A DNA stretch of 58,485 bases, taken from a virus. Position 1 is the first letter of the stretch; each line of letters starts with the position of its first letter. The DNA is taken from positions 1 through 58,485 of the IMG/VR virus record IMGVR_UViG_3300035190_000319; one strand, given 5' to 3'. The notes under the pieces are model-generated. The model was not told the origin of the DNA. It saw nothing but the letters and a program-made list of their open reading frames with translations, and ran no database searches. Below, piece after piece: positions 9,075 through 57,167 of this stretch. The position numbers and the translations under genes were made by a program.

Positions 9075-9959
9075 TTAACCAGTTATCCAAGTTAAAGGGG
9101 TGCCGCCGTCGGCATAAGTTGATATTTCAGCATCAAGTTTATCTAGCAATGCCTGTCCTTCTGCTTTAAGTGCGGCACCATTTAAACTGCCACCGCCTTG
9201 TGGACCAGCAATAGTAGCAAATTTCTCACGTGCTTGACCTATACTCATCATCACCAATGCATAAGCATAGTCTTGTATCCACGGATATACCTGCGGATCG
9301 TTTAACAACATATTATCAGGTTTAACATTGTATACCCATAACGCAACACTTTCTACCGCAGTAGAGTTTGGTCCTTGCCAAGGTTGTTTGCGCAATACTG
9401 TTAATTTTTTAGTTGCTTTATTGAACGTAAAGTTCATGTAGCCACCAAACATAGTCATTGCTAGCTCTTGGTATTGTGTAAACAATTCGTAGTTAGCAAG
9501 TCCACCTACTCGTCCTGCCACTAACATATAAGTGTTTAAATATCCACTTGCAAATGGTTCAAATTGACTAGCTGTAGTACCTGTTACACTACCGATACCA
9601 CGACGAAATATTTTTCTAACGTCCATAATCTCACGTGGTAATATGTATTCTTGTGTTTCTGGTTGTAAATCTAAGAACGCATAGCTTTCTTCTACTGCGT
9701 TTGAACTGCGTTGACGATAACGTATAAAGGCCTGCTTAATACCCATGTCGTAATGTTCTTTATCTGCTTCGACATCAACAATTTGATCACCTAATCGTAG
9801 ACGAATGTAATCAATGATATCGTTGCGTTGTTGATTCTCTGGTATCAGCGGAGTTGCATCATAAGCAATATGCCCAGCACCTGTACCGGTAACTGGATTG
9901 TATAAACTGTCTGTAGTTAGACTGAGATTTGCGGTTAAATTACCTGTTGCTGTTGCCAT
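9075..9959 (-). CDS. gp13: Neck protein gp13
   Basis: 294 aa; T4 gp13 is 309 aa. gp13 and gp14 close the head after packaging and form the tail-joining site. The family's signature is clear in YIRLRLGDQIVDVEADKEHY and RYRQRSSNAVEESYAFLDL (residues about 50-97). AGGA lies 9 bp upstream of the ATG, but that site is part of a 10-bp inverted repeat with the late box in its loop, so expression may be limited to late-initiated transcripts. It is separated from gp14 by two early-type genes and lies on the opposite strand from gp14 and gp15. Confidence 0.93.
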   Translation of the reverse strand: MATATGNLTANLSLTTDSLYNPVTGTGAGHIAYDATPLIPENQQRNDIIDYIRLRLGDQIVDVEADKEHYDMGIKQAFIRYRQRSSNAVEESYAFLDLQPETQEYILPREIMDVRKIFRRGIGSVTGTTASQFEPFASGYLNTYMLVAGRVGGLANYELFTQYQELAMTMFGGYMNFTFNKATKKLTVLRKQPWQGPNSTAVESVALWVYNVKPDNMLLNDPQVYPWIQDYAYALVMMSIGQAREKFATIAGPQGGGSLNGAALKAEGQALLDKLDAEISTYADGGTPLTWITG

Positions 9960-24385: not shown

Positions 24386-27300
24386 TTACTTGCCCTTTAT
24401 TTGTTGCTCTAGCAATTGGACCTGTTGTTGTAGTTCTTTAATTGCTTGGAATGCCAGGGCACACATTTTTTCGTAGTCAACAGCCAAGTAGCCATCTTCT
24501 CTAGTGCGCACTGCTTCGGGTAATACCTGCGCAACATCTTGTGCTATAACACCGAAGTCTGCTTTGCGCATAAAGTAGTCATCTAGGCCACCGTGATCGG
24601 CAATGTATTCATCAGTCCAATCGAATAGTTTACCACCAATGGCAGTAACTTTATCTAGTGCGTCGGGTATGTCACGCACATTTTCTTTTAAGTGTGAGTC
24701 TGAACTGTAGTAAGCAGTAATGTTGTTTGTAGCACGAATTTCACCAGTGGTGCCACTTGCGGCTGTGCCCACACCCAAACTGCCAAACTGCACACTAGAT
24801 GAAGTAGCCACTGCTTGCCCAATACTAAACGTAACTGCTCCCGTACCAGCACTTACACTAACGCCAGTGCCTGCTACTGCGCTGGTTACGGCTGTTGATA
24901 AGTATCCGCTTGGGTTAGTTGCATTGTACGGAGTAAATCCTAATGCAGTAGTGACTTGACTCGATGTAATCGCACCAACTAAATTTGTAGCACTTATATT
25001 ACCGGCTGTGATATTTCCAGTTACAGACAATGCTCCGAGTGTACCTAATGATGTAATACTTGTTTGTGCTGCAGTAAGAATTGTACCAGTTAAATTAGTA
25101 GCCGTTACATTACCAGCTGAAATATTTCCAGTAAATGTTGCGCCGCTTAATGCGGCTTTTTCTGTATCTAATTCTGCTAAGGCATCTTGTACAGTTGTGG
25201 CACTAATTGTACCCACTGGACTACTATAGGTAGCATTAGCATAAGCATTGTAATCGGTATAAGCATCAACTTCAGCTAATAATACTGTACCAGAACTTAC
25301 CCCAGTTGATAAAGTAACAGCCGAACTATTGGTTTCTGTATAAGCACTGTCAAATTGTCTAACACCGTTAATGTATATGCGTAATTGTCCTGCGCCGGGT
25401 GTATAGGTACCTAGTCCTGTAAATACTGTTTGTCCAGCCGTTGCTGTTTTGTAAGTGCGACTAGTACTAATTATAGTACCTACAGTACTACTTGCTCCAG
25501 ATTCAGCGGCCCAATAGTATGTACCTGGTCCTGATGTTTTTAATACATAACCACTGGTTTCACCACTTGGGAATAGATTGTTTAACGCTTCACTTGCGCT
25601 AGTACCACCAGTTCCGCCCGACGTAATAGCTAATGCTGTAGTCGATAGTGTTAAACTTGTTGCAGATATTGCGCCGCTAAATGTTGCTCCACTTAGATTG
25701 GCTTTAGTACTATCGATACTGTCAACGTAGCCGTTCATGTTGGTGTTGGCTGTTACAATTGCAGCATTTGCACCCGTAACTGAACTACTTACTGTGGTGA
25801 TTTGATTTGATTGTATTGTGTTCGCCGCATCAACATATCCTTTCATGTTGGTATTAGCTGTAGTGATTGCAGCATTTGCACCCGTAACTGAATTGCTAAC
25901 CGTAGTAATTTGCCCGTCAACATAGCCTTTCATGTTGGTGTTGGCTGTAGTTATAGCTGTGTTAGTATCAGTAATTAATCCGCTTTGTGTTGCGGCATTA
26001 CTTGTTAGTGTTGCTAAACTACCAGTAACTGAATCTAATATTGATACGCCATTAGTGTAGTTGAAATTATTAGCTGATATATTACCAGCAATGGCTAATC
26101 CTAAACTAGAAAAACTAGCAATATTTGAATTACTAACAGCAACATTAATAGAATTAGCAGTAACAGTAACATTACTATTGCCTGCATACAACAGCGAGGG
26201 ATTTATATCATTACTTAAATTAATTGGAGTCGCACTACCTGCCGGAGTAAAACTTAAAGCATTATCAACTACTTTAAGTAGAGCACCACCAATATGGATA
26301 GTACTGCCACTCATATACAAGTCGCGCCACCACAGTGAATTAGATCCTAAATCATATGTGACATTTGCTGAGGGTAGTAAATTACCAGTGATATTGATAT
26401 TGCCTGTAGATAATTCTACTTTAGATGTGGGGCCGTATGTTAATGATGATATAGAAACTGCGCCAGCAGCAATACTTCGAATTTCGATAATATCAGTACT
26501 TTGCGGAGTTTCTATAAATGTTATCAAATTACCAGTCATTATGTATGACGTAAACGGTTGTTGTAGTGTACCGTTGATGCTGACAATCAATCCGTCCGGT
26601 GTAGATTCTTCACTTAAAACATAACTGGCATTTACGCCATCGGGAGTAATTGTTTCCGATGTAATTGTAGCTGCACCTGGGTATGTCCATTCTGTTCCAG
26701 TCCAGTATTCTAATGTTTCACTGTCTGTGTTGAATCGTATGTAACCCAATTCCGGATTAAGCGGTCGAACCGATGAATTACCAGCCGGTATACTCAGTGC
26801 ATCTGTTCCTACAATATGCACAATACCCGTATTTTGTGCATTAAGGTAGATGTTTCCTGATGATGAAATTGTGTTATCATCGATTGATATGTTACCAATA
26901 TTAACAGTATTGTAGAATGTTGATGTATTTGCTGTTATATTTGCGATTAGCTGAGAATCAAGTGTAAGTTCTAATCTACTGGCAGCACCATCTATTAACT
27001 CTAATAGACTATCACCGTTGGTTAACGAAGCTCCAGCGGCACTGATAGCAGTAGTTAAATAGTTTAATGTAACAACATCTTGTTGACCTACTGGGTTAGC
27101 AACATTAGAAATTATACTGTTACCAGCAAAAATATAATTATTAACCGGAGCAAGAGTTAAGTTGGCTGTAGTTGATATTGTTGTATTGTTAAATGTAACA
27201 TTACCTACTTGTGTTAATGTTACGTTGGCAATGTTTGTAATACGACCTTTACTATCTACTGTTATTTTTGGTACACGATCCGCTACTTCATCATCAGCAG

Positions 27301-28207
27301 AACCATATACACCAGCTGTTACTCCGGTATTTGCTAGTGTTAGAGCAATATTAGAAACATTGCCGCTGCCAGTTACATCACCTGTTACATTTATTGTAGT
27401 GGCAGTTGTTATAACTCGAACATTATTTTCATAAAGTTCATCAGCATTAATAACACCTCCACTTGTATTACCTGATATGGTTATATTTCCACCAATAGTA
27501 ATGCTATCAACTGTGATATTACCTAAATTTGTTATGTTAGGCTGAACTGATGTAAGTATCGTTCCAGTAATAGTGTTGGCTGTTATATTATTAGCAACAA
27601 TATCTGCACCCGTTACATTACCAGTAATAGATATATTCCCACCAATGGAAATACTGTCGACTGTAACATTACCTAAATTTGTTATGTTAGGTTGATTTGC
27701 TGTAAGGATCGTACCATATAAATTATTTGAGTTAACAGTATTAGCATACACTGTACTCCACCATTTATCAGCATATCCGATATTGCCAGAGATGTTGCTT
27801 GATGGTACTATAGAACTTTGCGCAATGATATTGCCACTTACTGTCAGCGCAGATAATGTGCCAAGCGATGTTATATTAGTCTGTGCGGCTGTTAGTATTG
27901 TACCTGCTATGTTTGTGCTAGTGATATTATCGACATATACGTTGCTGCCGTAAATATTACGCCAACGGTTATTAGTTGAACCAATATCGTATGATAAGTT
28001 AGCTGAAGTTAGTACATTACCTGTAGTTACAAGTACATTGCCGGTGACATTTAGTGCTTCTTGAGGTGATGCCGTGTTGATACCAAGACGAAAGTTAGTA
28101 AAATCTAACTGTAATAGCGTATCACTGTTGGTAGTAAACCCTAGATCAAGACCTTGTCTATCTAAATTTCCTAACAGTGCCGCTCCGGGTACACGACCTA
28201 TTGCCAT
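24386..28207 (-). CDS. Long tail fibre with C-terminal S74 chaperone, 1273 aa
   Basis: The N-terminus (MAIGRVPGAALLGNLDRQGL, then FRLGINTASPQEALNVTGN) is a recurrent fibre N-domain in marine T4-like phages. The middle is Thr/Ile/Asn-rich beta repeats (ITGNVTGADIVANNITANTI type) and a TTANTNMKGYVD coiled stem repeated four times (residues about 745-825). The last about 105 residues are an S74 intramolecular chaperone: SDSHLKENVRDI starts near residue 1168, followed by FGVIAQDVAQVLPEAV and YEKMCALAFQAIKEL. Autocleavage before the Ser of SDSHLKEN is expected from the family. Its AGGAG site is in an inverted repeat with a late box. Confidence 0.92.
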   Translation of the reverse strand: MAIGRVPGAALLGNLDRQGLDLGFTTNSDTLLQLDFTNFRLGINTASPQEALNVTGNVLVTTGNVLTSANLSYDIGSTNNRWRNIYGSNVYVDNITSTNIAGTILTAAQTNITSLGTLSALTVSGNIIAQSSIVPSSNISGNIGYADKWWSTVYANTVNSNNLYGTILTANQPNITNLGNVTVDSISIGGNISITGNVTGADIVANNITANTITGTILTSVQPNITNLGNITVDSITIGGNITISGNTSGGVINADELYENNVRVITTATTINVTGDVTGSGNVSNIALTLANTGVTAGVYGSADDEVADRVPKITVDSKGRITNIANVTLTQVGNVTFNNTTISTTANLTLAPVNNYIFAGNSIISNVANPVGQQDVVTLNYLTTAISAAGASLTNGDSLLELIDGAASRLELTLDSQLIANITANTSTFYNTVNIGNISIDDNTISSSGNIYLNAQNTGIVHIVGTDALSIPAGNSSVRPLNPELGYIRFNTDSETLEYWTGTEWTYPGAATITSETITPDGVNASYVLSEESTPDGLIVSINGTLQQPFTSYIMTGNLITFIETPQSTDIIEIRSIAAGAVSISSLTYGPTSKVELSTGNINITGNLLPSANVTYDLGSNSLWWRDLYMSGSTIHIGGALLKVVDNALSFTPAGSATPINLSNDINPSLLYAGNSNVTVTANSINVAVSNSNIASFSSLGLAIAGNISANNFNYTNGVSILDSVTGSLATLTSNAATQSGLITDTNTAITTANTNMKGYVDGQITTVSNSVTGANAAITTANTNMKGYVDAANTIQSNQITTVSSSVTGANAAIVTANTNMNGYVDSIDSTKANLSGATFSGAISATSLTLSTTALAITSGGTGGTSASEALNNLFPSGETSGYVLKTSGPGTYYWAAESGASSTVGTIISTSRTYKTATAGQTVFTGLGTYTPGAGQLRIYINGVRQFDSAYTETNSSAVTLSTGVSSGTVLLAEVDAYTDYNAYANATYSSPVGTISATTVQDALAELDTEKAALSGATFTGNISAGNVTATNLTGTILTAAQTSITSLGTLGALSVTGNITAGNISATNLVGAITSSQVTTALGFTPYNATNPSGYLSTAVTSAVAGTGVSVSAGTGAVTFSIGQAVATSSSVQFGSLGVGTAASGTTGEIRATNNITAYYSSDSHLKENVRDIPDALDKVTAIGGKLFDWTDEYIADHGGLDDYFMRKADFGVIAQDVAQVLPEAVRTREDGYLAVDYEKMCALAFQAIKELQQQVQLLEQQIKGK

Positions 28208-28213
28208 TCACTG

Positions 28214-28242
28214 ACTCCTATTTTAATATTTATCGCAGGAGT
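28214..28242 (-). repeat. Inverted repeat hiding the 1273-aa fibre's ribosome-binding site
   Basis: ACTCCT (28214-28219) pairs with AGGAGT (28237-28242). On the minus strand the 5' arm is ACTCCT, the loop holds GATAAATA, and the 3' arm AGGAGT is the ribosome-binding site of the fibre gene. RNA from the late box lacks the 5' arm. Confidence 0.75.
28227..28234 (-). promoter_or_regulatory. Late promoter box GATAAATA for long fibre
   Basis: Minus-strand GATAAATA inside the inverted-repeat loop, 19 bp upstream of the ATG. Confidence 0.65.
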
Positions 28243-28661
28243 TAGGCTGCGGTTGTACTGCCAATATTATGTAATACTAATATAACTGCAGAAGTTGTTG
28301 GTACACTGGTAAAAGTTATAGTTGTTGTTCCATTAAACGTATAGTTCACACCCGGATTTTGATAAACTGTGTTTAAAAATACCAGGACCTGTGGTTCTTG
28401 TCCAGAATTATAAGTTTTAGTCATTGTAAAAGTCGATGCTACATTATCACCAGCAAACGTATCTTTAGTAATAGTAACTTCACCTTCTTTAGCTACGGCA
28501 TTCCATGTGCTGCCGGAATAAAATTCTAATTTACTTGTAGAAGTGTTATATCGTGTTTGTCCAATAACTGGCACATCTGGACCGATAGAACTTGATCCTA
28601 CAGGAACACCTAGTGCATAACTGCCTGTTTTAAATACTGTGTTTTTAAGTAAGCGTCCCAT
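28242..28661 (-). CDS. Fibre/structural module protein, 139 aa
   Basis: It starts MGRLLKNTVFKTGSYALGVP, resembling the GRPIKKKFF-type starts of structural proteins in marine T4-like phages. RYNTSTSKLEFYSGSTWNAV is a beta module shared with the larger fibres here (compare VRFNNSINNLEFFDGSIWQT in the giant fibre). The C-terminal half (VLVFLNTVYQNPGVNYTFNG) is another recurrent fibre module. It is probably a small virion fibre or connector. AGGA lies 6 bp before the ATG. Confidence 0.75.
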   Translation of the reverse strand: MGRLLKNTVFKTGSYALGVPVGSSSIGPDVPVIGQTRYNTSTSKLEFYSGSTWNAVAKEGEVTITKDTFAGDNVASTFTMTKTYNSGQEPQVLVFLNTVYQNPGVNYTFNGTTTITFTSVPTTSAVILVLHNIGSTTAA

Positions 28662-28973
28662 TTACATTCCTACATAACTAACTGTTGTTGTTATTGATGA
28701 ATTCGCTGATGCGTTAGCTCTTAATGTATCACCGTTGGCCAATACAATTTTTTCCATATCAACAACAAAAGTGTCATTACTTTGTATTTGTACACTTTTG
28801 TAAATTTGTACGTTACTATTGATCGTTGCTGTTCCGCTAGGCACCGCATATAGATCAAATGTTTTAGCAGTAGAATCTGTATTGCAAAAGTATATAACAG
28901 ATACTACAGTGTTGCCCGAACTGACGTATACGTTTGATACCACTGTTGTTAATAAGGTGTTAGAAATTGCCAT
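28662..28973 (-). CDS. Small structural protein, 103 aa
   Basis: The start at 28973 is preferred: AGGA lies 8 bp upstream and the longer frame overlaps the previous gene. The sequence MAISNTLLTTVVSNVYVSSG and VSVIYFCNTDSTAKTFDLYAV reads as an all-beta domain common in phage structural proteins of this type. The role in the particle is unknown. It lies between two other fibre-type genes with 11 bp or less on each side. Confidence 0.72.
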   Translation of the reverse strand: MAISNTLLTTVVSNVYVSSGNTVVSVIYFCNTDSTAKTFDLYAVPSGTATINSNVQIYKSVQIQSNDTFVVDMEKIVLANGDTLRANASANSSITTTVSYVGM

Positions 28974-28983
28974 TGTGTTAATC

Positions 28984-29565
28984 CTATAATAGTATTGAAA
29001 AAGCAAATGCTCGCTTTTTCGTAATTAGTTCTTCGTTAACAGCTTCGCCATTAACAACAAATACTCCACTTGCTCCTGCACTTGGTGTTGCAGCATATAC
29101 TACAGTGGCACCAGTAACTGCTGTGGGCGCAACTAGGGTATTGTTAATTTGTATGTTACCATTGAATTTTAAATTGCCGACATTTGATGATAAGGTGTAG
29201 CTATTGGTATTTAAATTACCGCCTAATGCTGGTGCAGTATCGTCAATTAATGCAAATGTTCCAGCTGTTGATGCAACTATGTTTAAATATGTTGTTCCAT
29301 CATTGGTAACTTGCCATCTATCAGTAGCCTCATTCCAGCGTAAGGCAACATTTGCCAGTGATCCTCGAGCAACAGCAATACCAGCAGTACCCAGTGTAAC
29401 ACCTGCACCGACTTCGCCATCATTAAGAACAATAATGTTGTCCTTTAATGTAGTATTAGTAGTTTGAATTGCAGTTTGTGAACCTTGTACCGTTAGATTA
29501 CCTGTGATGATAACATCAGTAGTGTCAATTGTATACGAGGTGTTGAGTTTTTTAACAGCAGCCAT
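28984..29565 (-). CDS. Fibre N-module protein, 193 aa
   Basis: TSYTIDTTDVIITGNLTVQG then TNTTLKDNIIVLNDGEVGAG is the same fold and wording as residues 40-110 of the giant fibre (TSDVTITGNLTVQGSSTYLT, then PLIVMNNAFSG), so both probably use the same docking module. RWNEATDRWQVTNDG continues the module. It is likely a virion fibre component or short fibre. A late box lies 20 bp upstream. Confidence 0.77.
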   Translation of the reverse strand: MAAVKKLNTSYTIDTTDVIITGNLTVQGSQTAIQTTNTTLKDNIIVLNDGEVGAGVTLGTAGIAVARGSLANVALRWNEATDRWQVTNDGTTYLNIVASTAGTFALIDDTAPALGGNLNTNSYTLSSNVGNLKFNGNIQINNTLVAPTAVTGATVVYAATPSAGASGVFVVNGEAVNEELITKKRAFAFSILL

Positions 29566-29585
29566 CTAAATATCCCAGTTTCTAT

Positions 29586-29593
29586 TATTTATG
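29586..29593 (-). promoter_or_regulatory. Late promoter box CATAAATA
   Basis: Minus-strand CATAAATA directly after the terminator of the 315-aa structural gene. It starts the next fibre unit. Confidence 0.6.
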
Positions 29594-29614
29594 CTAATTG
29601 TAGATAGTATAGTC

Positions 29615-29644
29615 AAAAAAATAACAGCCGAAGCTGTTATTTTT
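29615..29644 (-). terminator. Rho-independent terminator after 315-aa structural gene
   Basis: AAAAATAACAGC, loop CGAA, GCTGTTATTTTT: a long symmetrical stem that could act on either strand. It lies 12 bp after the stop codon. Confidence 0.9.
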
Positions 29645-29656
29645 AGTAACTAAAAA

Positions 29657-30604
29657 TTAGTCGTTTGATGCAAGTTTAACTGTTGTATTTGCTACTGCAT
29701 CACCAGTTGACGTCCAGCGAGCATGGCTGTTTGCGGTAAACTGTACACCTGCTGTATATCCATCAATATCTGCCGGGAATAACAATGCTGTACGTGATTC
29801 AAGTTTACCAACTACATAACTACCATTATCAGAGTCAAACGCTGTTAGTGTCATTTCGCCTGCGGCTGTTGGGCCACCTGCAGCAACAACTTGCGCTACT
29901 GTTGGGCTGTTAACACCGTTAACACCTGTTGGCACTAAACGAACTACATCAGTACCATCAGCATTAGTTACGCGATAACGACGTGAACTGCGTTGACTAA
30001 CGATATCAGCTTGTTTACCAATTGTGCCACCGGTAATCCGTGCGTTAGCTCTAATTGTATTAGCTGTAACTGTAGTAGCAGCAAGAACTGCTGTTAATGA
30101 GCCTGCTGAACCGATATCACCAAAACCAATCACTGTTGTACTTGTTGCACCGGTATTAGCGGCACTCATTGTAACATTACCTGTACCGATAGCTGTAATT
30201 TTAGTAGTTGCTGCAAACGCTGTATTTGCAGCCATACCAACAAATAAACCTACAGTAGTTGAAACTGTTAGTACATTTGAAGCACTAATTGCTCCGCCAG
30301 TTACAACAACGTTGGCTGGTTTAACTAAAGTAATATCTGGTGCAGTTGTGTAACCAGTACCTGCTGTTGTAACTGTTGCTGTATCAATACGACCGTTGGC
30401 TGTACTAACTGCAGCGATATTAATAACTGCACGTGTACCACCAATTGGGCTAACTGCTGCGGTTGCTGTTAAACCTTGTGAATAATTTGTGCCGCGGTTT
30501 GTGTAAGTAATGCTCGATACGCCTTCACCGCCTGGGGCTGTGTAGGTTAAACCATCATTAACATTATCTGAACCAAAAAACTTTTTCTTAATAGGACGTC
30601 CCAT
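29657..30604 (-). CDS. Structural protein with beta modules, 315 aa
   Basis: It begins MGRPIKKKFFGSDNVNDGLT, a start I recall in structural proteins of marine T4-like phages. Next comes GVSSITYTNRGTNYSQGLTA with GRIDTATVTTAGTGYTTAPD, the paired GTxY repeats typical of this family. Residues 120-175 (SNVLTVSTTVGLFVGMAANT) resemble the insertion found in neck protein gp14. The C-terminal LFPADIDGYTAGVQFTANSH is unassigned. The gene has a leader with two hairpins and AAGGAG, and its own terminator, so it may be abundantly expressed. Confidence 0.78.
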   Translation of the reverse strand: MGRPIKKKFFGSDNVNDGLTYTAPGGEGVSSITYTNRGTNYSQGLTATAAVSPIGGTRAVINIAAVSTANGRIDTATVTTAGTGYTTAPDITLVKPANVVVTGGAISASNVLTVSTTVGLFVGMAANTAFAATTKITAIGTGNVTMSAANTGATSTTVIGFGDIGSAGSLTAVLAATTVTANTIRANARITGGTIGKQADIVSQRSSRRYRVTNADGTDVVRLVPTGVNGVNSPTVAQVVAAGGPTAAGEMTLTAFDSDNGSYVVGKLESRTALLFPADIDGYTAGVQFTANSHARWTSTGDAVANTTVKLASND

Positions 30605-30625
30605 TTGTTTCTCCTTGTATAATTA

Positions 30626-30656
30626 GCGTTCTAACGCCTACGCAGTGGGTTACTGC
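30626..30656 (-). promoter_or_regulatory. Two leader hairpins upstream of structural gene
   Basis: GCGTT-CT-AACGC (30626-30637) and GCAGT-GGGTT-ACTGC (30642-30656), both perfect 5-bp stems, sit between the glycosyltransferase-like gene and the AAGGAG of the 315-aa gene. Function unknown; either RNA stability or a weak terminator. Confidence 0.45.
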
Positions 30657-30691
30657 ATAAACTCTCATTCAAGAGCGAACTATAGTATTTA

Positions 30692-31693
30692 TTAATTTAA
30701 ACGAGATACTATTAGTTTAAGCAACGATTCTTTAAGATTAGTTGATTTTAAATGATTAAAATTGTGCAGCCTTCTATCAGTAGTATTGATTAATAACTTA
30801 GCATGATCTAATGTAGCAATATAATCTAACACTTCATGCATTGCATCTATCCTGGCTTTGTTATCTTGTATATTATCATAGCTATGGTCAACTATATCAT
30901 CAAATACATCAAATCCTATATCTCTTAGATGTGATATCGCATGTTGTGGGCCACACATAATAGGTATTTGCCCCACAGCAAATATTTTATACGTTTTTTC
31001 GCTTAGTAATGACTTGTTTACTGAAGTTTCTGCTACAATATGAAATAAACTAGTTTTATAGACATCATAATTAGTAGAATTCATTGAGGTAACTAAATCT
31101 AATCCAGTATTAGTTGCTTCGTCTGAATCCATTAGTTGCCATGAATCGTATTCTTCTGTAAATCTTACTATTTCTGCATCTGTGAGAAAGTCCATTGCAT
31201 ATTCTCTAAGGGGGTGAATTGACTTGTATTTAGAGAATAAAATTTTGTCAAAGTAATATTTTTGTTTAAGCTGTATATAATTATATATTTTACCCGGTCT
31301 TTCGTTAAAATTTCTACATGCACAATTAAATAAAAATTCTGTAGTTGGGCTGAGCATTGTATTAGATAATTCCGCAGTTGAGAATAACCAATTTGGGTAA
31401 TAAAAGTAATTCTCTAAATTATCATCTTTATAATTCCAATATAATACTATTGTTTGTATAGGTAATTCATTGATATTGTTTAACGGGCGTTGATCACCGT
31501 GATATTCAAATAATATCAATAGATCAAAATTTGAAGTTAGTTTAGCAATGAATTCATTTAATGTACCGTTACGAATCGAGTCGTTGTATTTTTCTATTGT
31601 AGATACAGCCACTAACCTATTTGTTTTAACGTATTGATCAAGATATTTTAATTTATCTACCCAACAGTTTGAATTTATATCATAACATTTCAT
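30692..31693 (-). CDS. Glycosyltransferase-like (exostosin-like) protein
   Basis: 333 aa from the ATG at 31691-31693; a longer frame begins at a TTG inside the gp23 terminator and is less likely. The C-terminal block LLSEKTYKIFAVGQIPIMCG then IGFDVFDDIVDHSYDNI is the same pattern as ISEKTIKGILSKRPFILVGS...LGFKTFESIWDESYDTI in the 46039-47196 protein, a pattern of phage and bacterial exostosin/fucosyltransferase-like families. It may modify virion or host glycans. It lies between the fibre block and the major capsid gene, set off by a terminator, which suggests a later insertion. Confidence 0.72.
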   Translation of the reverse strand: MKCYDINSNCWVDKLKYLDQYVKTNRLVAVSTIEKYNDSIRNGTLNEFIAKLTSNFDLLILFEYHGDQRPLNNINELPIQTIVLYWNYKDDNLENYFYYPNWLFSTAELSNTMLSPTTEFLFNCACRNFNERPGKIYNYIQLKQKYYFDKILFSKYKSIHPLREYAMDFLTDAEIVRFTEEYDSWQLMDSDEATNTGLDLVTSMNSTNYDVYKTSLFHIVAETSVNKSLLSEKTYKIFAVGQIPIMCGPQHAISHLRDIGFDVFDDIVDHSYDNIQDNKARIDAMHEVLDYIATLDHAKLLINTTDRRLHNFNHLKSTNLKESLLKLIVSRLN

Positions 31694-31721
31694 ATACGTA
31701 CTTATCTTAACATGAGCCAAC

Positions 31722-31746
31722 AAAAAAGCCCCTTGCGGGGCTTTTT
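31722..31746. terminator. Bidirectional terminator downstream of gp23
   Basis: AAAAAAGCCCC, loop TTGC, GGGGCTTTTT. It is the strongest GC stem in the window, 27 bp after the gp23 stop, and closes the capsid operon. Confidence 0.95.
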
Positions 31747-31773
31747 ATTTTCATATCCTACTAAGAATAAATC

Positions 31774-32952
31774 TTATTGGAATGATAGGTTTGCTACAGT
31801 GATTTTTTCTAAGTAGTCAGCTGCATTACCAAGAGATGATGCAGTGTTACTTAATTCAACATAACCATAACGTGTCATAAAGCCCACTACTGGTTCGAAT
31901 GTTGATGGATCTAACACAACACCAGAACTCATTAATGGAACGTATGGACAGTAAAACGCTGCTGCGTCTGATTCTGAAGAACCTTTGTAACCAACTAACA
32001 CTGTGTCGTTTGAAGCGTATGTGTTAACATAGATCTTCATAGCACTGTTTAAAGTACCAACGAATTTTGTGTTTGTAGGAGCTTCGAATGTACCTTCTGT
32101 ACTACGAGCAAAAGCTGAAGTAGTTGCAGATTGTAACACTGTTAATGCTGATGGACTTACAACTGCCCAGTTACCAGCGCCACGACGTGTACGTTGTGCA
32201 ATTTTGTTAGCACTACGGTTGATAAGAACTGCTAAAGCAGCGTGCTCATCACCAACGAATGTAGCTGTACCAGATACAGTAGCTTGGTTGTAGTTATCAG
32301 TTGCAGTAGAAGCCAAAGCTGCTAATGAACCTAGAACTTCTTGGTCAATTTCAACAGTAATTTCTTGTGCCAAAGCTGCCATGATTTCTGCTTCAACATC
32401 TAAACCGTGCATAGATTGTGCATCTTGCGCAGCTTCAAATGTCCAACGAGCAGACAATTTACGTGTTTTAGCTTCAACAACTTGTTTCAAGATTTGAACG
32501 TTAATACGGTTACCTGGAACACCTTCTAGTGAACTAGTTGATGCTGCAAGACCTGTTGACGTTTTGCTTGAGTAAGCTGTAGCAATGTTGAATGGTGAAA
32601 GTGCTTCACCACCTGGAACTGCTGCATCACCGCCTAATGAACCAGCAGCTTGTGAATCTGCATAACGCACACGTAATGTGTGAATTTGTGCAACTGGACC
32701 TGTCATTGGTTGTACACCAACGATTTCATTTGCAATAACTGTTGGCATTACACGACGAATTACTGGAAGAATTACGCGGTTCAATGTTGCAACGTTACCT
32801 ACTGCTGTTGCTCCTGCTGATGCGTTTTCTGTTAAGTGCTTACGTGTGTTTTCTAAGATTACGGACATTGTAGAACGTTTTGAACCTTGTAGACCTTCTA
32901 ACAGGGCATCCTTAGTTTCGTTCCAACGGCCTTCTAATAGTTGGGTTGTCAT
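31774..32952 (-). CDS. gp23: Major capsid protein gp23
   Basis: 392 aa; T4 gp23 is 521 aa. The family signature is clear: VATLNRVILPVIRRVMPTVI, GVQPMTGPVAQIHTLRVRYA, KLSARWTFEAAQDAQSMHGL and AQEITVEIDQEVLGSL. LTEN at residues 40-43 fits the (L/I)xE cleavage rule of the T4 prohead protease, giving a mature protein of about 350 residues. The shorter length suggests that the T4 insertion domain is reduced. AAGGA precedes the ATG but no late box lies directly upstream, so it is probably fed by boxes upstream of gp68 or gp20. Confidence 0.97.
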   Translation of the reverse strand: MTTQLLEGRWNETKDALLEGLQGSKRSTMSVILENTRKHLTENASAGATAVGNVATLNRVILPVIRRVMPTVIANEIVGVQPMTGPVAQIHTLRVRYADSQAAGSLGGDAAVPGGEALSPFNIATAYSSKTSTGLAASTSSLEGVPGNRINVQILKQVVEAKTRKLSARWTFEAAQDAQSMHGLDVEAEIMAALAQEITVEIDQEVLGSLAALASTATDNYNQATVSGTATFVGDEHAALAVLINRSANKIAQRTRRGAGNWAVVSPSALTVLQSATTSAFARSTEGTFEAPTNTKFVGTLNSAMKIYVNTYASNDTVLVGYKGSSESDAAAFYCPYVPLMSSGVVLDPSTFEPVVGFMTRYGYVELSNTASSLGNAADYLEKITVANLSFQ

Positions 32953-37671: not shown

Positions 37672-40326
37672 TTAATAGCTGTTCTGTAAAATTCCTGACG
37701 ATATAGAATTATTTTTTTGCATTGTGGCTAAAATACTTTGTAACAGACTAATTTGTTGTTGTTCTGCCGGATTGGCACTAGCGACTGGTTTTTCCATTGC
37801 TTTTGCTTTGGCTGCCGCTGCGGCAGGATCAACAACAGCACCATACAACTTAGTCTGTTCGGCTGCTAAGTTTTGCGTCATTTGGCCGGCTACTGGTTTT
37901 GGAGCAGTTAATTGATTTGCACTAGAAGTTTTTATTTTAGCTCCCTGTGCTTTAATCATATCTTCTTTAACTCGCTCTGCCGCTGATGCGTAGTTTTCGG
38001 GTGAACCAGGGAAATATGATTCTTCTTCTGCTAGATATTTTTTAAAGTTTGGATGAGATCTAATTTGATCACCGGTTACACCTTTAAGAGTACCGCTAGC
38101 TGACGTGGCCGTCGTTGTAGCTTTGCCTAACTTTTCGCTACCCACATTACCAGCATAGTATTGATCATATATACCTTTGCCGGCGCCTACTACACCACCG
38201 ATGCCTGCTCCTATTGCAGTACCAACTCCTGGTACTACAGAACCAATCATAGCACCATAACCTGCATACTTAGTAGCTGTACCAGCAACTCCCACAGCCT
38301 TACCAGTTTTTTCGTAGCCAGCTTCTGTTAACTTGTCTCCGCCATATTGAATTCCTGTTCCTACTGCAGCACCAACTACGCCAAGTCCTACACCTTTCAG
38401 CACTGTACTGGCACCACCAATTTTACTCAAGTATGAGCTAGCAGCACTACCGACTCCCCCTGTACCTTTAAACGCTTTAAATATCGAAGGTCCAAACTGT
38501 GTTAGAGCAGCAACAACTGAAAGAATTGGTCCTGCTAGTGAAAGGAATAATGATTTTAACGGATTTTCTTCAACTGCATTAGCTAACTTGCCTAATGCTT
38601 CTACTGCTAGCATTGCAGCTTTAAATGATTCTTCTAGTGCTGTGCTAAATGAATCTAAATGGGTTAATGCAAGTGCTTGCATTCTTATTGACATTTCTTG
38701 TTGTTGCGCCATTAGATCAACAGCTACTCCGCCTGCGCCTTTTGCTCCTGCGGCTTGTTCAGCAGCTATTTTAGCTCTTTCTTCTTCAGATTTCGCAAAA
38801 GTTGCTGTGTACTGAGTTGCTCTTAAATTTATAGCACTAGCTGCCTGTGCATCAGCACTAGTAGCCATAGCCATACCTTTGTTGGCCATTGCAGCATCAT
38901 GAGTCGATTGCATTGTATCTTTTTGTAATCGAGCAGTTTGCTCTGCAGACAGTGAACCATCCTGTGCTGCTTTAAATGTTTTAGTATTAAACTCAGCAAT
39001 GCCTCTATTAGTTGCTTGTGCTATAGCAAGGTCTTTGCTGATAACACTACCGTAAATCATATTTTCACGGAAAGCTCGTTGCTGATCCGCATTCATATTC
39101 ATCATTGCATCATTAATTCGTGCTTGTTCGGTGGCTGATTTACCATCTAATATTTGTTGGAATGCCAATGTATCATTATCTTGGCGAAGTTTTTCTTGTT
39201 TAGATTTTGTATCTTCACCTGTTAGATCAGACAGCACCTTCATGTTTTTTGCATATTCTTGAGTCTGTGCTGCTATCTGTTCGTTTGATGCATTTAATTT
39301 TCTTGAAGGTCCGGCCATAATAGCCATTGTTGTTGCATAAGCATCGGCTTGTTCTTCTAAGCCCATACCCAGGGCAAACATTCCGTTACGTGCCGCGTCA
39401 CCTCCTTTTTGCATAGCGGCAGCCATACGTTTACTACCTTCTGCTACACCGAGACCCGATCTTGCAAATGCATCTCTATTTTGAGTAACTGCTTTAGAGA
39501 ATTGGTCTAATGTCATTCCAGCACTTAACGCAGTATCAGTCATACTGATCAAGCCACCGCTATATACTGCTCCTGCCGCTGACATTGATTGGAAACCAGC
39601 AATTAATTGTTTGGTTTGACCAAGCATAAATCCTATGCCGGCTTTAGCTAGTTCACTTAACCCAGTACTTGCGGCACCCAGTACTTCGCCAAAAATACCT
39701 GCAGCACGTCCTGCCATTCCAACTTTGCCGCCGGCACCTGCTGTTGCAGCACCAAATGATTTTAATGAATTTGCACTACCTTGATTGGCTGCGTTAACAA
39801 GATCAACACCAGCAGTCATCATTGATGTAGCTACGTCAAATGAGTCTCCACCACGCAATGCTGTAGTGGCTGCTCCGGTAAATGCTTTAGTTACGCCGGC
39901 GCCTATTGTTCCAGCTAAACTATACACACTATCTTTTAATGCAGCGTGCGCCTTATTACGAGCATTCATTGCTTCGAGATCAGCTTTAGCATCAAGTAGA
40001 GCTTGTTTTTTACTTTGATCTGATGTTTTGTTAACTTCGTTTCTTAGATTATCTAGTTGATCTGATAATTCTTCGGCGCTTACTTCACCTTTGTCGATGC
40101 TCTTTTTAAGATCATCCATGGATTTTTTAATGTCAACAGACGATTTTTTGAATGCGACATTAAATTTCTCAACGCCGCCCGCTAACTCTAATATTTTTTT
40201 CTTGGCTTCGACCCCAGAGAGATTCATTAATTTAGCAACATCTGCATACATCTCCATTTGAGCTCGTGCTTTATCCGATGCGTTAGCAAGTGCTTCAATC
40301 CTCTGGTCTAATTCTTTTTCATCCAT
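37672..40326 (-). CDS. Tail tape measure protein (gp29 position), 884 aa
   Basis: The protein is long and alpha-helical: charged helices at residues 1-130, Gly/Ala/Met-rich repeats in the middle, hydrophobic segments at about 590-625 (LKSLFLSLAGPILSVVAALT) and glycine-rich membrane-like stretches at about 655-745 (GVGLGVVGAAVGTGIQYGG). This layout is that of tape measure proteins, which set tail length and enter the host membrane. T4 gp29 is 590 aa, so a longer tail is implied, if length scales with tail length. It is divergent from gp26 across a large palindrome that carries a late box for each gene. Confidence 0.75.
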   Translation of the reverse strand: MDEKELDQRIEALANASDKARAQMEMYADVAKLMNLSGVEAKKKILELAGGVEKFNVAFKKSSVDIKKSMDDLKKSIDKGEVSAEELSDQLDNLRNEVNKTSDQSKKQALLDAKADLEAMNARNKAHAALKDSVYSLAGTIGAGVTKAFTGAATTALRGGDSFDVATSMMTAGVDLVNAANQGSANSLKSFGAATAGAGGKVGMAGRAAGIFGEVLGAASTGLSELAKAGIGFMLGQTKQLIAGFQSMSAAGAVYSGGLISMTDTALSAGMTLDQFSKAVTQNRDAFARSGLGVAEGSKRMAAAMQKGGDAARNGMFALGMGLEEQADAYATTMAIMAGPSRKLNASNEQIAAQTQEYAKNMKVLSDLTGEDTKSKQEKLRQDNDTLAFQQILDGKSATEQARINDAMMNMNADQQRAFRENMIYGSVISKDLAIAQATNRGIAEFNTKTFKAAQDGSLSAEQTARLQKDTMQSTHDAAMANKGMAMATSADAQAASAINLRATQYTATFAKSEEERAKIAAEQAAGAKGAGGVAVDLMAQQQEMSIRMQALALTHLDSFSTALEESFKAAMLAVEALGKLANAVEENPLKSLFLSLAGPILSVVAALTQFGPSIFKAFKGTGGVGSAASSYLSKIGGASTVLKGVGLGVVGAAVGTGIQYGGDKLTEAGYEKTGKAVGVAGTATKYAGYGAMIGSVVPGVGTAIGAGIGGVVGAGKGIYDQYYAGNVGSEKLGKATTTATSASGTLKGVTGDQIRSHPNFKKYLAEEESYFPGSPENYASAAERVKEDMIKAQGAKIKTSSANQLTAPKPVAGQMTQNLAAEQTKLYGAVVDPAAAAAKAKAMEKPVASANPAEQQQISLLQSILATMQKNNSISSGILQNSY

Positions 40327-40336
40327 GGTTTTAACC

Positions 40337-40344
40337 TATAAATA
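40337..40344 (+). promoter_or_regulatory. Late promoter box TATAAATA for gp26
   Basis: Perfect T4 late consensus, plus strand, 36 bp upstream of the gp26 ATG. It faces the minus-strand box at 40361-40368. Confidence 0.8.
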
Positions 40345-40360
40345 TATAGTATATCAATTA

Positions 40361-40368
40361 TATTTATA
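40361..40368 (-). promoter_or_regulatory. Late promoter box TATAAATA for tape measure
   Basis: Perfect T4 late consensus, minus strand, 34 bp upstream of the tape measure ATG. The two boxes point at each other with +1 sites only a few bases apart. Confidence 0.8.
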
Positions 40369-40380
40369 GGAAATAAAACC

Positions 40381-41235
40381 ATGGCTCAAATCAATAACGC
40401 AAATCCGTTAGCTAAACACTTTCGCCAACCTGCGCTGTATATCAAGTTAACCAGTGAAGGACGTTTTTGGAAAGAAGGCTCATTAGAACTACCTGTAACA
40501 GGCGAACTTCCTGTATATCCAATGACCACCAGAGATGAAATTACATTACGCACACCAGATGCACTAATCAGTGGTACTAGTGTAGTCGATGTTATACAAA
40601 GTTGCTGTCCAAGTATTAAAAACGCTTGGGATATGCCCAGCGTTGATGTAGACACTACATTAATTGCTATCCGTATTGCTAGTTACGGTCCTACAATGGC
40701 TATTGGATCAACTTGTCCAAAATGCGGTACAGAACACGATTATGATGTAGACTTAACTGCTACGTTAGGTTCTGTATCAATGCCAGATTATTCAAAAACT
40801 GTTGAACTACCTGATGGATTATCTGTCAGCCTTAAACCATTAACCTATGCTCAAATTAGCAAATCTGGTAACACTGTGTTTGAAGAAGAAAAGTTAATTC
40901 AAACTCTAGCAGATCCAGATCTTGATGCAGAAGTTAGAAAAGTCAAATACACTGAACATATTAGTAAAATGGTCGAATTAAACATCGAAACCATAACTAA
41001 TTGCACAGCCGCAATTACCACAGAAGACGGTAATGTTGTAACAGACACAAAATTTATTAGAGAATACTATACAAATTCTGAATCGACTGTGTTGCGCACA
41101 ATACAACAGACAATCGAAGAATTAGCCAAAGCAATTAGTATTAAACCAGTTGATGTGGTATGTACTGAATGCTCAAACGAATTTAAATTAGCTATCGATT
41201 TTGACTATGCAAGTTTTTTCGCTCGAGGCTTTTGA
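40381..41235 (+). CDS. gp26: Baseplate hub protein gp26
   Basis: 284 aa; T4 gp26 is 208 aa. A baseplate hub or hub-assembly protein. Two zinc-type CxxC motifs are seen: CPKCGTEHDYDVDL (about residue 118) and CTECSNEFKLAIDF (about 262), the latter next to the C-terminal YASFFARGF, a typical ending of this family. TITNCTAAITTEDG lies between them. The end overlaps gp51 by four bases (TTGA), so the two are coupled. Confidence 0.87.
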   Translation: MAQINNANPLAKHFRQPALYIKLTSEGRFWKEGSLELPVTGELPVYPMTTRDEITLRTPDALISGTSVVDVIQSCCPSIKNAWDMPSVDVDTTLIAIRIASYGPTMAIGSTCPKCGTEHDYDVDLTATLGSVSMPDYSKTVELPDGLSVSLKPLTYAQISKSGNTVFEEEKLIQTLADPDLDAEVRKVKYTEHISKMVELNIETITNCTAAITTEDGNVVTDTKFIREYYTNSESTVLRTIQQTIEELAKAISIKPVDVVCTECSNEFKLAIDFDYASFFARGF

Positions 41236-41482: not shown

Positions 41483-41490
41483 GATAAATA
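41483..41490 (+). promoter_or_regulatory. Late-type box GATAAATA before HNH gene
   Basis: Plus-strand GATAAATA, 18 bp upstream of the HNH ATG; AGGAG follows. Late expression would contrast with the host-type promoter of the first HNH gene. Confidence 0.5.
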
Positions 41491-41508
41491 AACATATAGG
41501 AGATTTAT

Positions 41509-42270
41509 ATGTTTATTGAAAACAAATACAAGCGGTGGTATGATGCAATTGTCAGTAATGCACAATTGAGATCAACACCGCTTTCTTACAGTGAAAAACA
41601 TCACATCATACCAAAATCAATCGGAGGACAAGATAGTAAAGATAATCTTGTTCATTTGTCAGGGCGCGAGCATTTTATATGCCATTGGTTGTTAATTAAA
41701 ATAACAACAGGTAGCAATCGTGAAAAAATGATATATGCATTAAACGGAATGCAGCGTGTATCACGTACTCATCAACAAGAACGATATATTACTAAAATTA
41801 CCAGTCGTGTATTTGCTAATCTTAAAGAAGAATTTAGTAGAATACATTCTGCACGACTTACAGGTCGCACCATGTCTACAGAACAAAAAGCTAAAATATC
41901 TGCAGCAGGAAAAGGAAGAATACAATCTCAAGAAACTATAGATAAACGCAGTGCATCTTGTACAGGTAAAAAAAGAACACTTGAACAAAAAGAACGTATG
42001 AGTATTGCTCAAAAAGGGAGAATAGCGAAAGAATATTCCCAAGAAGAAAAGAATATAATATCAGCAAAAATATCTGCAGCAAATAAAGGTAGAGTTATGT
42101 CTGATGAAACTAAAGTTAAACTTTCTGCGATTAATAAAGGAAAAAAGTTACCGCCAAAAAGCGAAGAAACAAAACAGAAGATGCGTAAACCAAAAACAGA
42201 AGCACATAAAAAAGCAATATCAGACGCACGTAAAGCCAAATATGCAATACCCGTACCAAAGTCATTATAA
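41509..42270 (+). CDS. HNH homing endonuclease with NUMOD3 repeats
   Basis: 253 aa. Residues 29-62 carry YSEKHHIIPKSIGG then NLVHLSGREHFICHWLL, the same core as the HNH protein at 1417-2013. The C-terminal 130 residues are at least five NUMOD3-type DNA-binding motifs (MSTEQKAKISAAGKGR, RTLEQKERMSIAQKGR, MSDETKVKLSAINKGK and similar). A free-standing homing endonuclease downstream of gp51. The strong basic helices suggest a long DNA target. AGGAG precedes the ATG. It may terminate at the structured region beginning near 42299. Confidence 0.92.
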   Translation: MFIENKYKRWYDAIVSNAQLRSTPLSYSEKHHIIPKSIGGQDSKDNLVHLSGREHFICHWLLIKITTGSNREKMIYALNGMQRVSRTHQQERYITKITSRVFANLKEEFSRIHSARLTGRTMSTEQKAKISAAGKGRIQSQETIDKRSASCTGKKRTLEQKERMSIAQKGRIAKEYSQEEKNIISAKISAANKGRVMSDETKVKLSAINKGKKLPPKSEETKQKMRKPKTEAHKKAISDARKAKYAIPVPKSL

Positions 42271-42894: not shown

Positions 42895-43331
42895 CTGTTT
42901 TTATCAATCTTTAAATCTTTTACAGAGCCTTTACCAAGTTTAATCTGTATGATACCGTTGTAGTTATTTTCCTTCAACAGCACACCTTCTGTAAATTGAT
43001 AGTACGCTTCCATATAGTTTGTTTCACCGCGACTCTTACACAAATGTATAATTTCGCGAGTAAACTGTTCTTTGCCTAAAGCTAATATATCTGCTACTAA
43101 TCGACTCGAAGAACCCCAATAGTCTTTCCAATCAGTTTCGATTGTTTCTAGACGTTTGTTCTTTTTGCCTTTTAGTGGTGGTCTTTTTTTGATAGTTTTA
43201 AAATACTTACGGCCAACATAATCGTAGCCGTTAGTAAGATTGGTTATTCTATAAATGAAACCGTAGTATGCACCAATATCCTCAGAGTCAAATATTACAC
43301 CATTGTACGTCCAAGGATATTCGTATGTCAT
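42891..43331 (-). CDS. GIY-YIG-like putative endonuclease
   Basis: 146 aa. YYGFIYRITNLTNGYDYVGR (residues 22-41) is the GIY-YIG pair of strands in the form GFIY and YVG. DWKDYWGSSS and ETNYMEAYYQF follow, the latter giving a possible catalytic Glu. WTYNGVIFDSEDIG is a conserved lead-in that I recall in T4-like cyanophages. It may be a DNA-processing enzyme rather than a homing element, since it is conserved in these phages. It follows the histone-like gene by 7 bp. Confidence 0.8.
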   Translation of the reverse strand: MTYEYPWTYNGVIFDSEDIGAYYGFIYRITNLTNGYDYVGRKYFKTIKKRPPLKGKKNKRLETIETDWKDYWGSSSRLVADILALGKEQFTREIIHLCKSRGETNYMEAYYQFTEGVLLKENNYNGIIQIKLGKGSVKDLKIDKNS

Positions 43332-43338
43332 ACGTTAT

Positions 43339-43524
43339 TTATTTTGCAGCCGCTGCATTTTTCTTCTCTTGGATTTCTGCACGACGAGCTTTTGCCAATT
43401 TAGCCAAGTCACCTAATGCACCACGAGCACGTGCCGCTGCGGCTTTAACACCTTTAACTTCAAATTTTTCTGATTCTGCTACGTATAATTCTACTGCTGC
43501 TAAAATATCATCATGAATTGCCAT
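43339..43524 (-). CDS. Histone H1/Hc1-like small basic protein
   Basis: 61 aa from the ATG at 43522-43524, chosen for AAGGAG 8 bp upstream. The sequence KGVKAAAARARGALGDLAKL AKARRAEIQE, split here as two helices, has the GxKAAxxRARxALxxLxKL pattern of the bacterial Hc1/histone-H1-like family, with an Ala/Lys tail. A role in DNA compaction or as a small DNA-binding regulator is likely but not proven. A late-type box lies 26 bp upstream; the neighbour is recombination protein gp46. Confidence 0.7.
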   Translation of the reverse strand: MAIHDDILAAVELYVAESEKFEVKGVKAAAARARGALGDLAKLAKARRAEIQEKKNAAAAK

Positions 43525-48878: not shown

Positions 48879-49772
48879 TTACTCGTCTGCTCCGTGTCCG
48901 CCACCGCCCCATGAACCGCCGCCTTGATTTTGTCTTGTATAACTAGGTGCGTAGTTGTTCATCTCTAAGATGTCATCACGAATGTTTTGATTACGCTTTT
49001 CGATGTTTAGAACACGGGTAAAGCTGTTGGTGATTGCGGCTGTGTAATAGGCAAATGGATTGTCTGATTTGCTTTCATCGAACTGTAGGCCAATCTGACT
49101 TAACTGTAGTAATGCTTGACTGCGCATTTCATCGTTATAGGTATAACCGCGCCAGTTGCTACGTGTAGCATAGCGTTCACATAGTTTAACAAACATATGA
49201 GCCAACTTAGCAGTCATCTGCCCGTGATCTTTACTAAACGCACCAGTAGTTAAATCACCCTTCCAATGGCTTTTACCTACAATAACTGGAGTTAGGTCTT
49301 CAGTTACTGAGTAATGAAAGAATGGTGGAAAGTTTAGCTTAACGTACTTAGTAGCACCTTTAACTTTAACAGCGGGCTCATCATACTCAGTTTCGAATAA
49401 ATCTTCGTCGTATGCTTCTTGTGCTTTAGCATCAGATTTTTTCTGTTTAACTTCATCGATTGGTATATGTTCCCAGGTCATGACACGGAATACAATGTCA
49501 GTGACTGGAATATTTTCTACAGGGATTGCAAATTCATCTAGTTTGCGTTTATTGCCAAGTAACAGTTCGGCTTCTTGTGCTTCTTTAGCTAGTCTAGTTG
49601 CACGTGTTGCCCTTGCTTCTGCTACGGATTTTTTAGTAATTGCACTAACATTTGATACAATAGCATCGTAAATGGTTACTTCTTCATTGACGAAACTACA
49701 GTATGCTAATTTACTTTTTGCTATTTCTTTTAATATGTCTTTGTTGTTGAGATAATTAATTTTACGAGCCAC
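48879..49772 (-). CDS. gp55: Late-transcription sigma factor gp55
   Basis: 297 aa with a GTG start; T4 gp55 is 185 aa. The C-terminal half carries the family signature: SNWRGYTYNDEMRSQALLQL then FDESKSDNPFAYYTAAITNS and FTRVLNIEKRNQNIRDDIL, corresponding to sigma region 2. It directs RNA polymerase to TATAAATA-type boxes. The first about 170 residues are an N-terminal extension not in T4; the end is Gly/Asn-rich. AAGGA lies 10 bp upstream. A TATACT box is at about 49794-49799, and a minus-facing CATAAATA at 49826-49833 could give late self-activation. Confidence 0.88.
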   Translation of the reverse strand: MARKINYLNNKDILKEIAKSKLAYCSFVNEEVTIYDAIVSNVSAITKKSVAEARATRATRLAKEAQEAELLLGNKRKLDEFAIPVENIPVTDIVFRVMTWEHIPIDEVKQKKSDAKAQEAYDEDLFETEYDEPAVKVKGATKYVKLNFPPFFHYSVTEDLTPVIVGKSHWKGDLTTGAFSKDHGQMTAKLAHMFVKLCERYATRSNWRGYTYNDEMRSQALLQLSQIGLQFDESKSDNPFAYYTAAITNSFTRVLNIEKRNQNIRDDILEMNNYAPSYTRQNQGGGSWGGGGHGADE

Positions 49773-56776: not shown

Positions 56777-56784
56777 GATAAATA
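56777..56784 (+). promoter_or_regulatory. Late-type box GATAAATA before gp25, predicted leaderless
   Basis: Plus-strand GATAAATA with five bases to the gp25 ATG, so +1 would be the A of ATG. For read-through RNA, AGGA at 56775-56778 is the only ribosome-binding site and is 11 bp from ATG, which is long. Confidence 0.5.
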
Positions 56785-56789
56785 TTATT

Positions 56790-57167
56790 ATGGCTATTTT
56801 ATATAAAGGTTTCTCAACAGTAGGACGAAATAAAAAGTTTCGTCTAACTGACTTTGAGTTAATTAAGCAAGATTTAACAAATCACTTTCAAATCCGCAAA
56901 GGTGAGAAACTGATGAATCCTAATTTTGGCACTATTATATGGAACGTTTTATATGATCCATTCACTCCTGAACTTAAGAGTGCAATTATAGCTGATATTA
57001 AAGCAATTGCCGCCTATGACCCACGTGTTTCTATCGACAATGTTATCGTTACTGAGTATGAAACTGGTATCCAAATTGAACTTGAACTACGCTATCTACA
57101 GACAAATCAAACAAATTTAATGAATCTTAGATTCAACAATCAAAACAGAACACTCACAACATATTAA
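56790..57167 (+). CDS. gp25: Baseplate wedge protein gp25
   Basis: 125 aa; T4 gp25 is 132 aa. It is the contractile-injection wedge core that starts sheath assembly. The family signature is complete: RKFRLTDFELIKQDLTNHFQ-like segment, IRKGEKLMNPNFGTIIWNVL, with the conserved GEKLMNPxFG that is also found in type VI TssE proteins. It precedes gp6 as in many T4-like phages. Confidence 0.95.
   Translation: MAILYKGFSTVGRNKKFRLTDFELIKQDLTNHFQIRKGEKLMNPNFGTIIWNVLYDPFTPELKSAIIADIKAIAAYDPRVSIDNVIVTEYETGIQIELELRYLQTNQTNLMNLRFNNQNRTLTTY

Follow-up and report, generated by a model that had tools for sequence, protein, structure and literature searches.

A predicted late promoter within a ribosome-binding-site hairpin ahead of a tail-fibre gene in a giant T4-related phage

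Introduction

Ahead of a long tail-fibre gene, a late-promoter box lies between two complementary arms, one of which is the ribosome-binding site of that gene, and this layout raises the question of whether the hairpin selects the transcript from which the fibre is made. The locus is part of a 58,485-nucleotide stretch of viral DNA (IMG/VR record IMGVR_UViG_3300035190_000319), all of which is referred to as the window. The major capsid protein shares 66-68% identity with its counterparts in PA5oct, Vibrio phage 2.275.O and Sinorhizobium phage Phosso, and gp13 matches jumbo phages such as Atu_ph07, PA5oct, XaC1, GAP32, K64-1 and CBB; the window therefore comes from a giant T4-related phage.

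T4 uses hairpins that hide the ribosome-binding site, together with late promoter control, on its lysis gene (gene e) and on homing-endonuclease genes (PMC3014915, PMC2988022), and in its late promoters gp55 reads an 8-bp TATA box that lies roughly one helical turn ahead of the start (PMC2988020). The mechanism is already known, and what is new is that it is conserved on virion genes of giant T4-related phages; in the open-access papers searched, no report of such a hairpin switch on virion genes across these phages was found. The explanation favoured here, with a probability of about 0.8, is that the fibre hairpin works as a translational switch with the promoter inside it, of the kind known from T4 gene e and I-TevI.

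Layout of the fibre leader

Read 5' to 3' on the minus strand, the hairpin (28242-28214) is ACTCCT-GC-GATAAATA-TTAAAAT-AGGAGT, preceded by ...GCAGCC and the stop codon TAA (28244-28242), and followed by the six nucleotides CAGTGA that separate the 3' arm from the ATG at 28207 (Table 1). The first-pass annotation had claimed an exact ACTCCT/AGGAGT pairing with AGGAGT as the fibre ribosome-binding site, a box between the arms, and an overlap of the 5' arm with the upstream stop codon, and the sequence bears out each point: the arms are exact 6-bp complements, with a seventh pair closable by G.U, the box occupies the loop, and the last base of the TAA opens ACTCCT. The C-terminal region of the fibre protein resembles tail-fibre and distal long-fibre families (phrog_8215, 3.9e-33; phrog_5668, 2.9e-26; phrog_5667, 9.8e-18).

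Calling the box "late" is backed by the gp55-like late sigma factor encoded in the window and by the ATAAATA motif reported upstream of structural genes in CBB, a related phage (PMC5259590). Matches to T4 gp55 were found in seven of the eight records searched (E up to 1), those in PA5oct, XaC1 and CBB being weak (0.003-0.007).

Table 1. Elements of the fibre leader, its gp13 counterpart and associated genes in the window
Feature	Position	Strand	Basis or remark
5' arm ACTCCT	28237..28242	-	sequence and arm-swap tests; begins with the final base of the upstream TAA
Late-promoter box GATAAATA in the hairpin loop	28227..28234	-	sequence; box kept in 31/32 relatives; gp55-type sigma factor in the window
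Predicted late transcription start, about A28221	28219..28222	-	predicted with the box at -13 to -6; T4 geometry (PMC2988020)
3' arm AGGAGT, fibre-gene Shine-Dalgarno	28214..28219	-	sequence; 6 nt upstream of ATG 28207
Tail-fibre gene, 1,273 aa	24386..28207	-	PHROG matches, translation
Upstream ORF, 139 aa	28242..28661	-	weak tail-fibre/baseplate similarity; stop codon overlaps the 5' arm
ATAAATA of late box CATAAATA, before ORF 28984-29565	29586..29592	-	putative; nearest promoter-like element for read-through RNA
gp13 hairpin, arms AAGTCATCCTGTT / AACAGGATGATTT, box GCTAAATA at 9988-9981 in the loop	9963..10004	-	sequence, swap test
gp13-type head-tail adaptor (neck) gene	9075..9959	-	phrog_211, head-tail adaptor Ad2, E=2.3e-29
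gp55-like sigma factor for late transcription	48879..49772	-	phrog_12791, E=2.4e-77; phrog_234, E=5.1e-24; T4 gp55 match

Predicted folding of the fibre leader

In isolation, the fibre hairpin has a predicted energy of -5.8 to -6.5 kcal/mol. Structure prediction, which had been proposed as a check, places bases 2-6 of the Shine-Dalgarno sequence in pairs with the 5' arm in a 104-nt transcript context with a probability of at least 0.98, the outer pair reaching 0.89, and thus predicts that the site is sequestered. Opening the region from the Shine-Dalgarno sequence to the ATG at 37 C would cost 5.5-7.3 kcal/mol in the read-through RNA versus 3.0 in the late RNA. A GC-rich hairpin, CGCAG/CTGCG, competes with the 5' arm; its predicted probability in the long RNA is about 0.004, and it was set aside as the main fold of the leader, although this minor structure could form first during transcription.

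When partners were swapped among 102 late-box leaders from the window and four related contigs, the natural pairing at the fibre site came within the best 5-6%, and shuffling the 5' segment gave p=0.063. A 6-bp stem considered alone is thus weak, suggestive evidence, with a chance of about 0.05-0.08 of arising when a purine-rich Shine-Dalgarno sequence meets a pyrimidine-rich partner in AT-rich DNA. As an explanation of the whole pattern, such a chance encounter is very improbable, because the arm-swap and covariation tests over relatives, together with the genome-wide excess of pairing, argue against it. The fibre site is significant because of this comparative evidence and not because of the single stem.

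Arm pairing among relatives

Relatives of the fibre N-terminus were taken from IMG/VR (the best 80 of 401 encoded relatives) and supplemented by means of the start-codon pattern MAI[SG]R[VI]PG, which gave 32 distinct leaders once duplicates were removed. Among cultured phages, neither a nucleotide search with positions 27000-30000 nor tblastn with the fibre N-terminus returned matches. A late-type box (ATAAATA or CTAAATA type) stands 18-32 nt before the ATG in all of the distinct leaders except L010, which also lacks the hairpin.

The arms change in sequence and pairing is kept: against ACTCCT/AGGAGT in the window, the relatives have GTCCTC/GAGGAC (L003), AATTATCC/GGATAATT (L007), AATAATCC/GGATTATT (L133), AAAATCC/GGATTTT (L103), TAATTTTC/GAAAATTA (L100) and AACTTTTC/GAAAGGTT (L095). 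The pairing energy was compared with that obtained when the 5' segment of each relative was joined to the 3' segment of another. The natural mean was -8.19 kcal/mol versus -5.95 after swapping (n=31, sd 0.33, z=-6.7), and z was -4.5 for a set thinned to 18 dissimilar leaders; in neither set did any of the 20,000 permutations come as low as the natural mean. Furthermore, 14 aligned leaders of one sub-group showed a covariation of 0.221 versus 0.120 when shuffled (2/500) and a maximum of 0.123 when slid, and paired cells made up 82.7% of their helix, against 29-52% after a shift of 1-3 columns. In a substantial minority of the relatives (e.g., L005, L008, L085, L091, L097 and L116), the natural pairing gains little or nothing over swaps.

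The first-pass annotation had named arms that are not conserved as pairs in related genomes as the outcome that would speak against it; the arms were found to vary and to stay complementary, at the fibre gene as well as at gp13. Covariation of this kind suggests that the pairing of the fibre arms is maintained by selection.

The inverted repeat could instead act in the DNA, serving the late polymerase or a DNA-binding regulator, with RNA folding being incidental. Such a reading would suit the position of the box, which in nearly every instance sits within or between the arms, and one palindrome in the window, between genes 37672 and 40381, is simply two opposed boxes. However, no sequence is shared among the arms, the spacing between arm and box is variable, and the position of the 3' arm follows that of the Shine-Dalgarno sequence; moreover, T4 late promoters have no conserved sequence at -35 according to a 2010 review (PMC2988020), and arm changes that G.U pairing tolerates occur in L008 and L147. 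A role at the DNA level is accordingly improbable, and the translational switch is retained.

The gp13 element

The same arrangement had been noticed at gp13 with unrelated arms, so that the design rather than the sequence would be repeated, and this is right: there, AAGTCATCCTGTT and AACAGGATGATTT enclose GCTAAATA. The gp13 arms form 13 bp with -16.5 to -18.6 kcal/mol and are stronger than the fibre hairpin. Because the distance between arm and box varies, and MAFFT alignment puts the gp13 5' arms out of register, pair counts were omitted and the swap test was used; over 26 distinct relatives, the natural mean was -13.7 versus -9.6 after swapping (sd 0.49, z about -8.4). A late-type box lies in the loop or the 5' arm of a gp13 hairpin that hides the Shine-Dalgarno sequence in seven of nine cultured jumbo phages (XaC1, PHA46, Hallingskeid, GAP32, K64-1, CBB and Vibrio phage 2.275.O). 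The PA5oct gp13 leader has the box and no Shine-Dalgarno-hiding hairpin of this kind, and the Atu_ph07 leader has no canonical box.

Pairing across late boxes genome-wide

Every gene with an upstream late box was scanned for pairing across the box and compared with swapped partners, gene starts being taken from a simple home-made ORF caller and not from curated annotation. Close homologues are shared among the window, G001 and G002, and p-values are accordingly reported genome by genome. Pairing at late-box leaders exceeds that of swapped partners in the window (p=0.008) and in four large jumbo-phage genomes, namely G001 (0.0016), G006 (0.0002), CBB (0.0001) and XaC1 (0.0002); the excess is borderline in G002 (0.04). 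Genes of the same genomes that have no box showed no consistent difference in mean pairing from swapped partners; among them, some genomes, e.g., CBB, have somewhat more very strong pairings (-10 or below) than swapping gives. The strong late-box cases include an endolysin (G006) and homing endonucleases (G001), which belong to the gene classes that T4 controls in this way. Others are a baseplate wedge gene (G001), gp13, and, in XaC1 or CBB, genes for a tail fibre, a tail tube and a KTSC-type structural protein.

Some leaders flagged by energy were not counted as support. In some, for example at the sheath gene (ATG near 7935), the Shine-Dalgarno sequence is not sequestered, and the palindrome at the 37672/40381 leaders arises only from two late promoters facing each other; all of these remain inside the genome-wide totals.

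These data also bear on translational coupling, in which a ribosome ending at the upstream stop would open the stem and fibre translation would depend on it. In favour of coupling, nearly all fibre relatives have the upstream stop at or in the 5' arm, 8-14 nt ahead of the box (2 nt in L121), and the upstream reading frame extends over 139-186 codons. On the other hand, the 5' arm of gp13 begins about 7-12 nt past the upstream stop in the window and the cultured relatives, so the overlap is not needed, and pairing is in excess at late-box genes and not consistently so at genes without a box, a pattern not expected from coupling alone. Coupling is therefore unlikely as the main explanation; judging from gp13 it is not the core of the design, yet it may modulate the fibre hairpin.

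Upstream transcription and the proposed switch

According to the switch model, RNA reading through from upstream would carry both arms, and binding of ACTCCT to the Shine-Dalgarno AGGAGT would reduce initiation. The box GATAAATA appears to be placed so that its own RNA lacks the 5' arm: a gp55-type late polymerase would start about six bases past it, near A28221, and the resulting late RNA, with its ribosome-binding site free, would be translated. The fibre would then be made mainly from its own late transcript, because only the late RNA escapes the 5' arm. We infer the transcription start, the degree of repression and the early-versus-late timing at the fibre gene.

The hairpin itself was considered as an intrinsic terminator, i.e., a GC stem followed by a T run, and this reading was rejected: CAGTGAATG comes 3' of the stem, and no own-strand terminator-like site was detected in 28000-32000, including the interval between the late box at 29592-29586 and the fibre gene. 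As a separate observation, a strong terminator-like hairpin, AAAAAGCCCC..GGGGCTTTTT, occupies 31723-31746, between the major capsid gene and ORF 30692-31723.

As the nearest promoter-like element upstream is a late box, the read-through RNA may also be late. This opens a variant of the switch, compatible with it, in which the hairpin blocks fibre translation from a long multi-gene late RNA and would tie the fibre dose to its own promoter. The variant draws on the box ahead of 28984-29565 and on the fact that no own-strand terminator-like site was detected between it and the fibre gene, but given several weak sigma-70-like matches upstream of the fibre gene some read-through RNA may be early, and we regard the variant as plausible at somewhat less than even odds. 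A broader and more tentative extension is that a set of virion, lysis and homing genes of giant T4-related phages might be translatable only from their own late promoters, each placed within the hairpin that conceals the ribosome-binding site, with the hairpin filtering RNAs by promoter of origin and setting dose; as upstream RNA would often be late too, this filter would operate within late operons, beyond an early/late clock.

Comparison with known systems

The closest parallel to the proposed fibre switch is T4 gene e, where the Shine-Dalgarno sequence is likewise in the 3' arm, the read-through RNA folds, the late RNA is made without the 5' arm, and TATAAATA late boxes lie between the arms or just upstream of the Shine-Dalgarno sequence (PMC3014915). 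When the T4 e leader was re-read as a control, two boxes were found upstream of the Shine-Dalgarno sequence, inside the folded leader. The T4 gene encodes lysozyme and its repression has been measured at about 100-fold (PMC3014915), whereas the window gene encodes a tail fibre, has a shorter stem and is known here from sequence and prediction; in addition, the nearest promoter upstream of the fibre gene is also of late type.

As predicted for the fibre leader, those of T4 I-TevI, I-TevII, I-TevIII and segB and of Aeh1 mobE have a hairpin that sequesters the ribosome-binding site and a late promoter positioned for late RNA to escape it; in them, the read-through RNA that folds is early or middle (PMC2988022). 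These are homing-endonuclease genes, whereas the window site belongs to a virion gene; the homing endonucleases of G001 share the design. A virion gene of T4, soc (capsid decoration), is listed among genes whose initiation region forms an inhibitory RNA structure (PMC3014915), and its leader, re-read as a control, has a late box just upstream; the window gene differs in encoding a tail fibre in another gene context. In the jumbo phages CBB and GAP32 the same ATAAATA box precedes structural genes, and the accessible text of that paper describes the promoter motif without mention of a hairpin (PMC5259590), whereas hairpins around the CBB box were found here.

The T4 examples are few and mostly concern lysis or homing genes, whereas here essential virion genes are involved across giant phages. 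Covarying leaders with a promoter in the hairpin, repeated with unrelated arms, suggest that this branch uses the device generally in late-gene control. The signature, a box between arms that pair with the Shine-Dalgarno sequence, may serve to locate late start sites and genes under tight timing in uncultured phages; testable examples occur in such cultured phages as CBB, GAP32, K64-1, PHA46 and XaC1.

Other late-box arrangements

A 354-kb related phage (G006) has a box inside a Shine-Dalgarno hairpin of -19.4 kcal/mol at its endolysin gene (G006:C1:121734-122360, minus strand; L310:1734-2360), a close analogue of T4 gene e control. In the window, the start codon of the homing-endonuclease gene 41509-42270 lies in a perfect 11-bp hairpin, AATAAACATAT / ATATGTTTATT (41483-41517, plus strand), with the Shine-Dalgarno AGGAG in the loop and a late box GATAAATA overlapping the 5' arm, comparable to control of the T4 I-TevI type.

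Between the divergent genes 37672-40326 (minus) and 40381-41235 (plus), two opposed TATAAATA boxes form a palindrome (40327-40380) in which each box doubles as a 5' arm over the TATAGG ribosome site of the other gene; the arrangement recurs in G002 and partly in G006. XaC1 (269910-271051) and CBB (230504-232199) have genes for a translation initiation factor, a ClpS-domain protein and a KTSC-type structural protein in a row, with late-box hairpins at the ClpS and KTSC genes of CBB and at the KTSC-family gene of XaC1.

Finally, two late boxes of the window stand only 4-5 nt before an ATG, at 56777-56792 (plus; GATAAATA TTATT ATG) and at 43331-43343 (minus; AATAAATA ACGT ATG). The genes concerned are a baseplate wedge gene and one resembling homing-endonuclease/'NAD synthetase' PHROGs, and the boxes, if used, would give leaderless late RNA.
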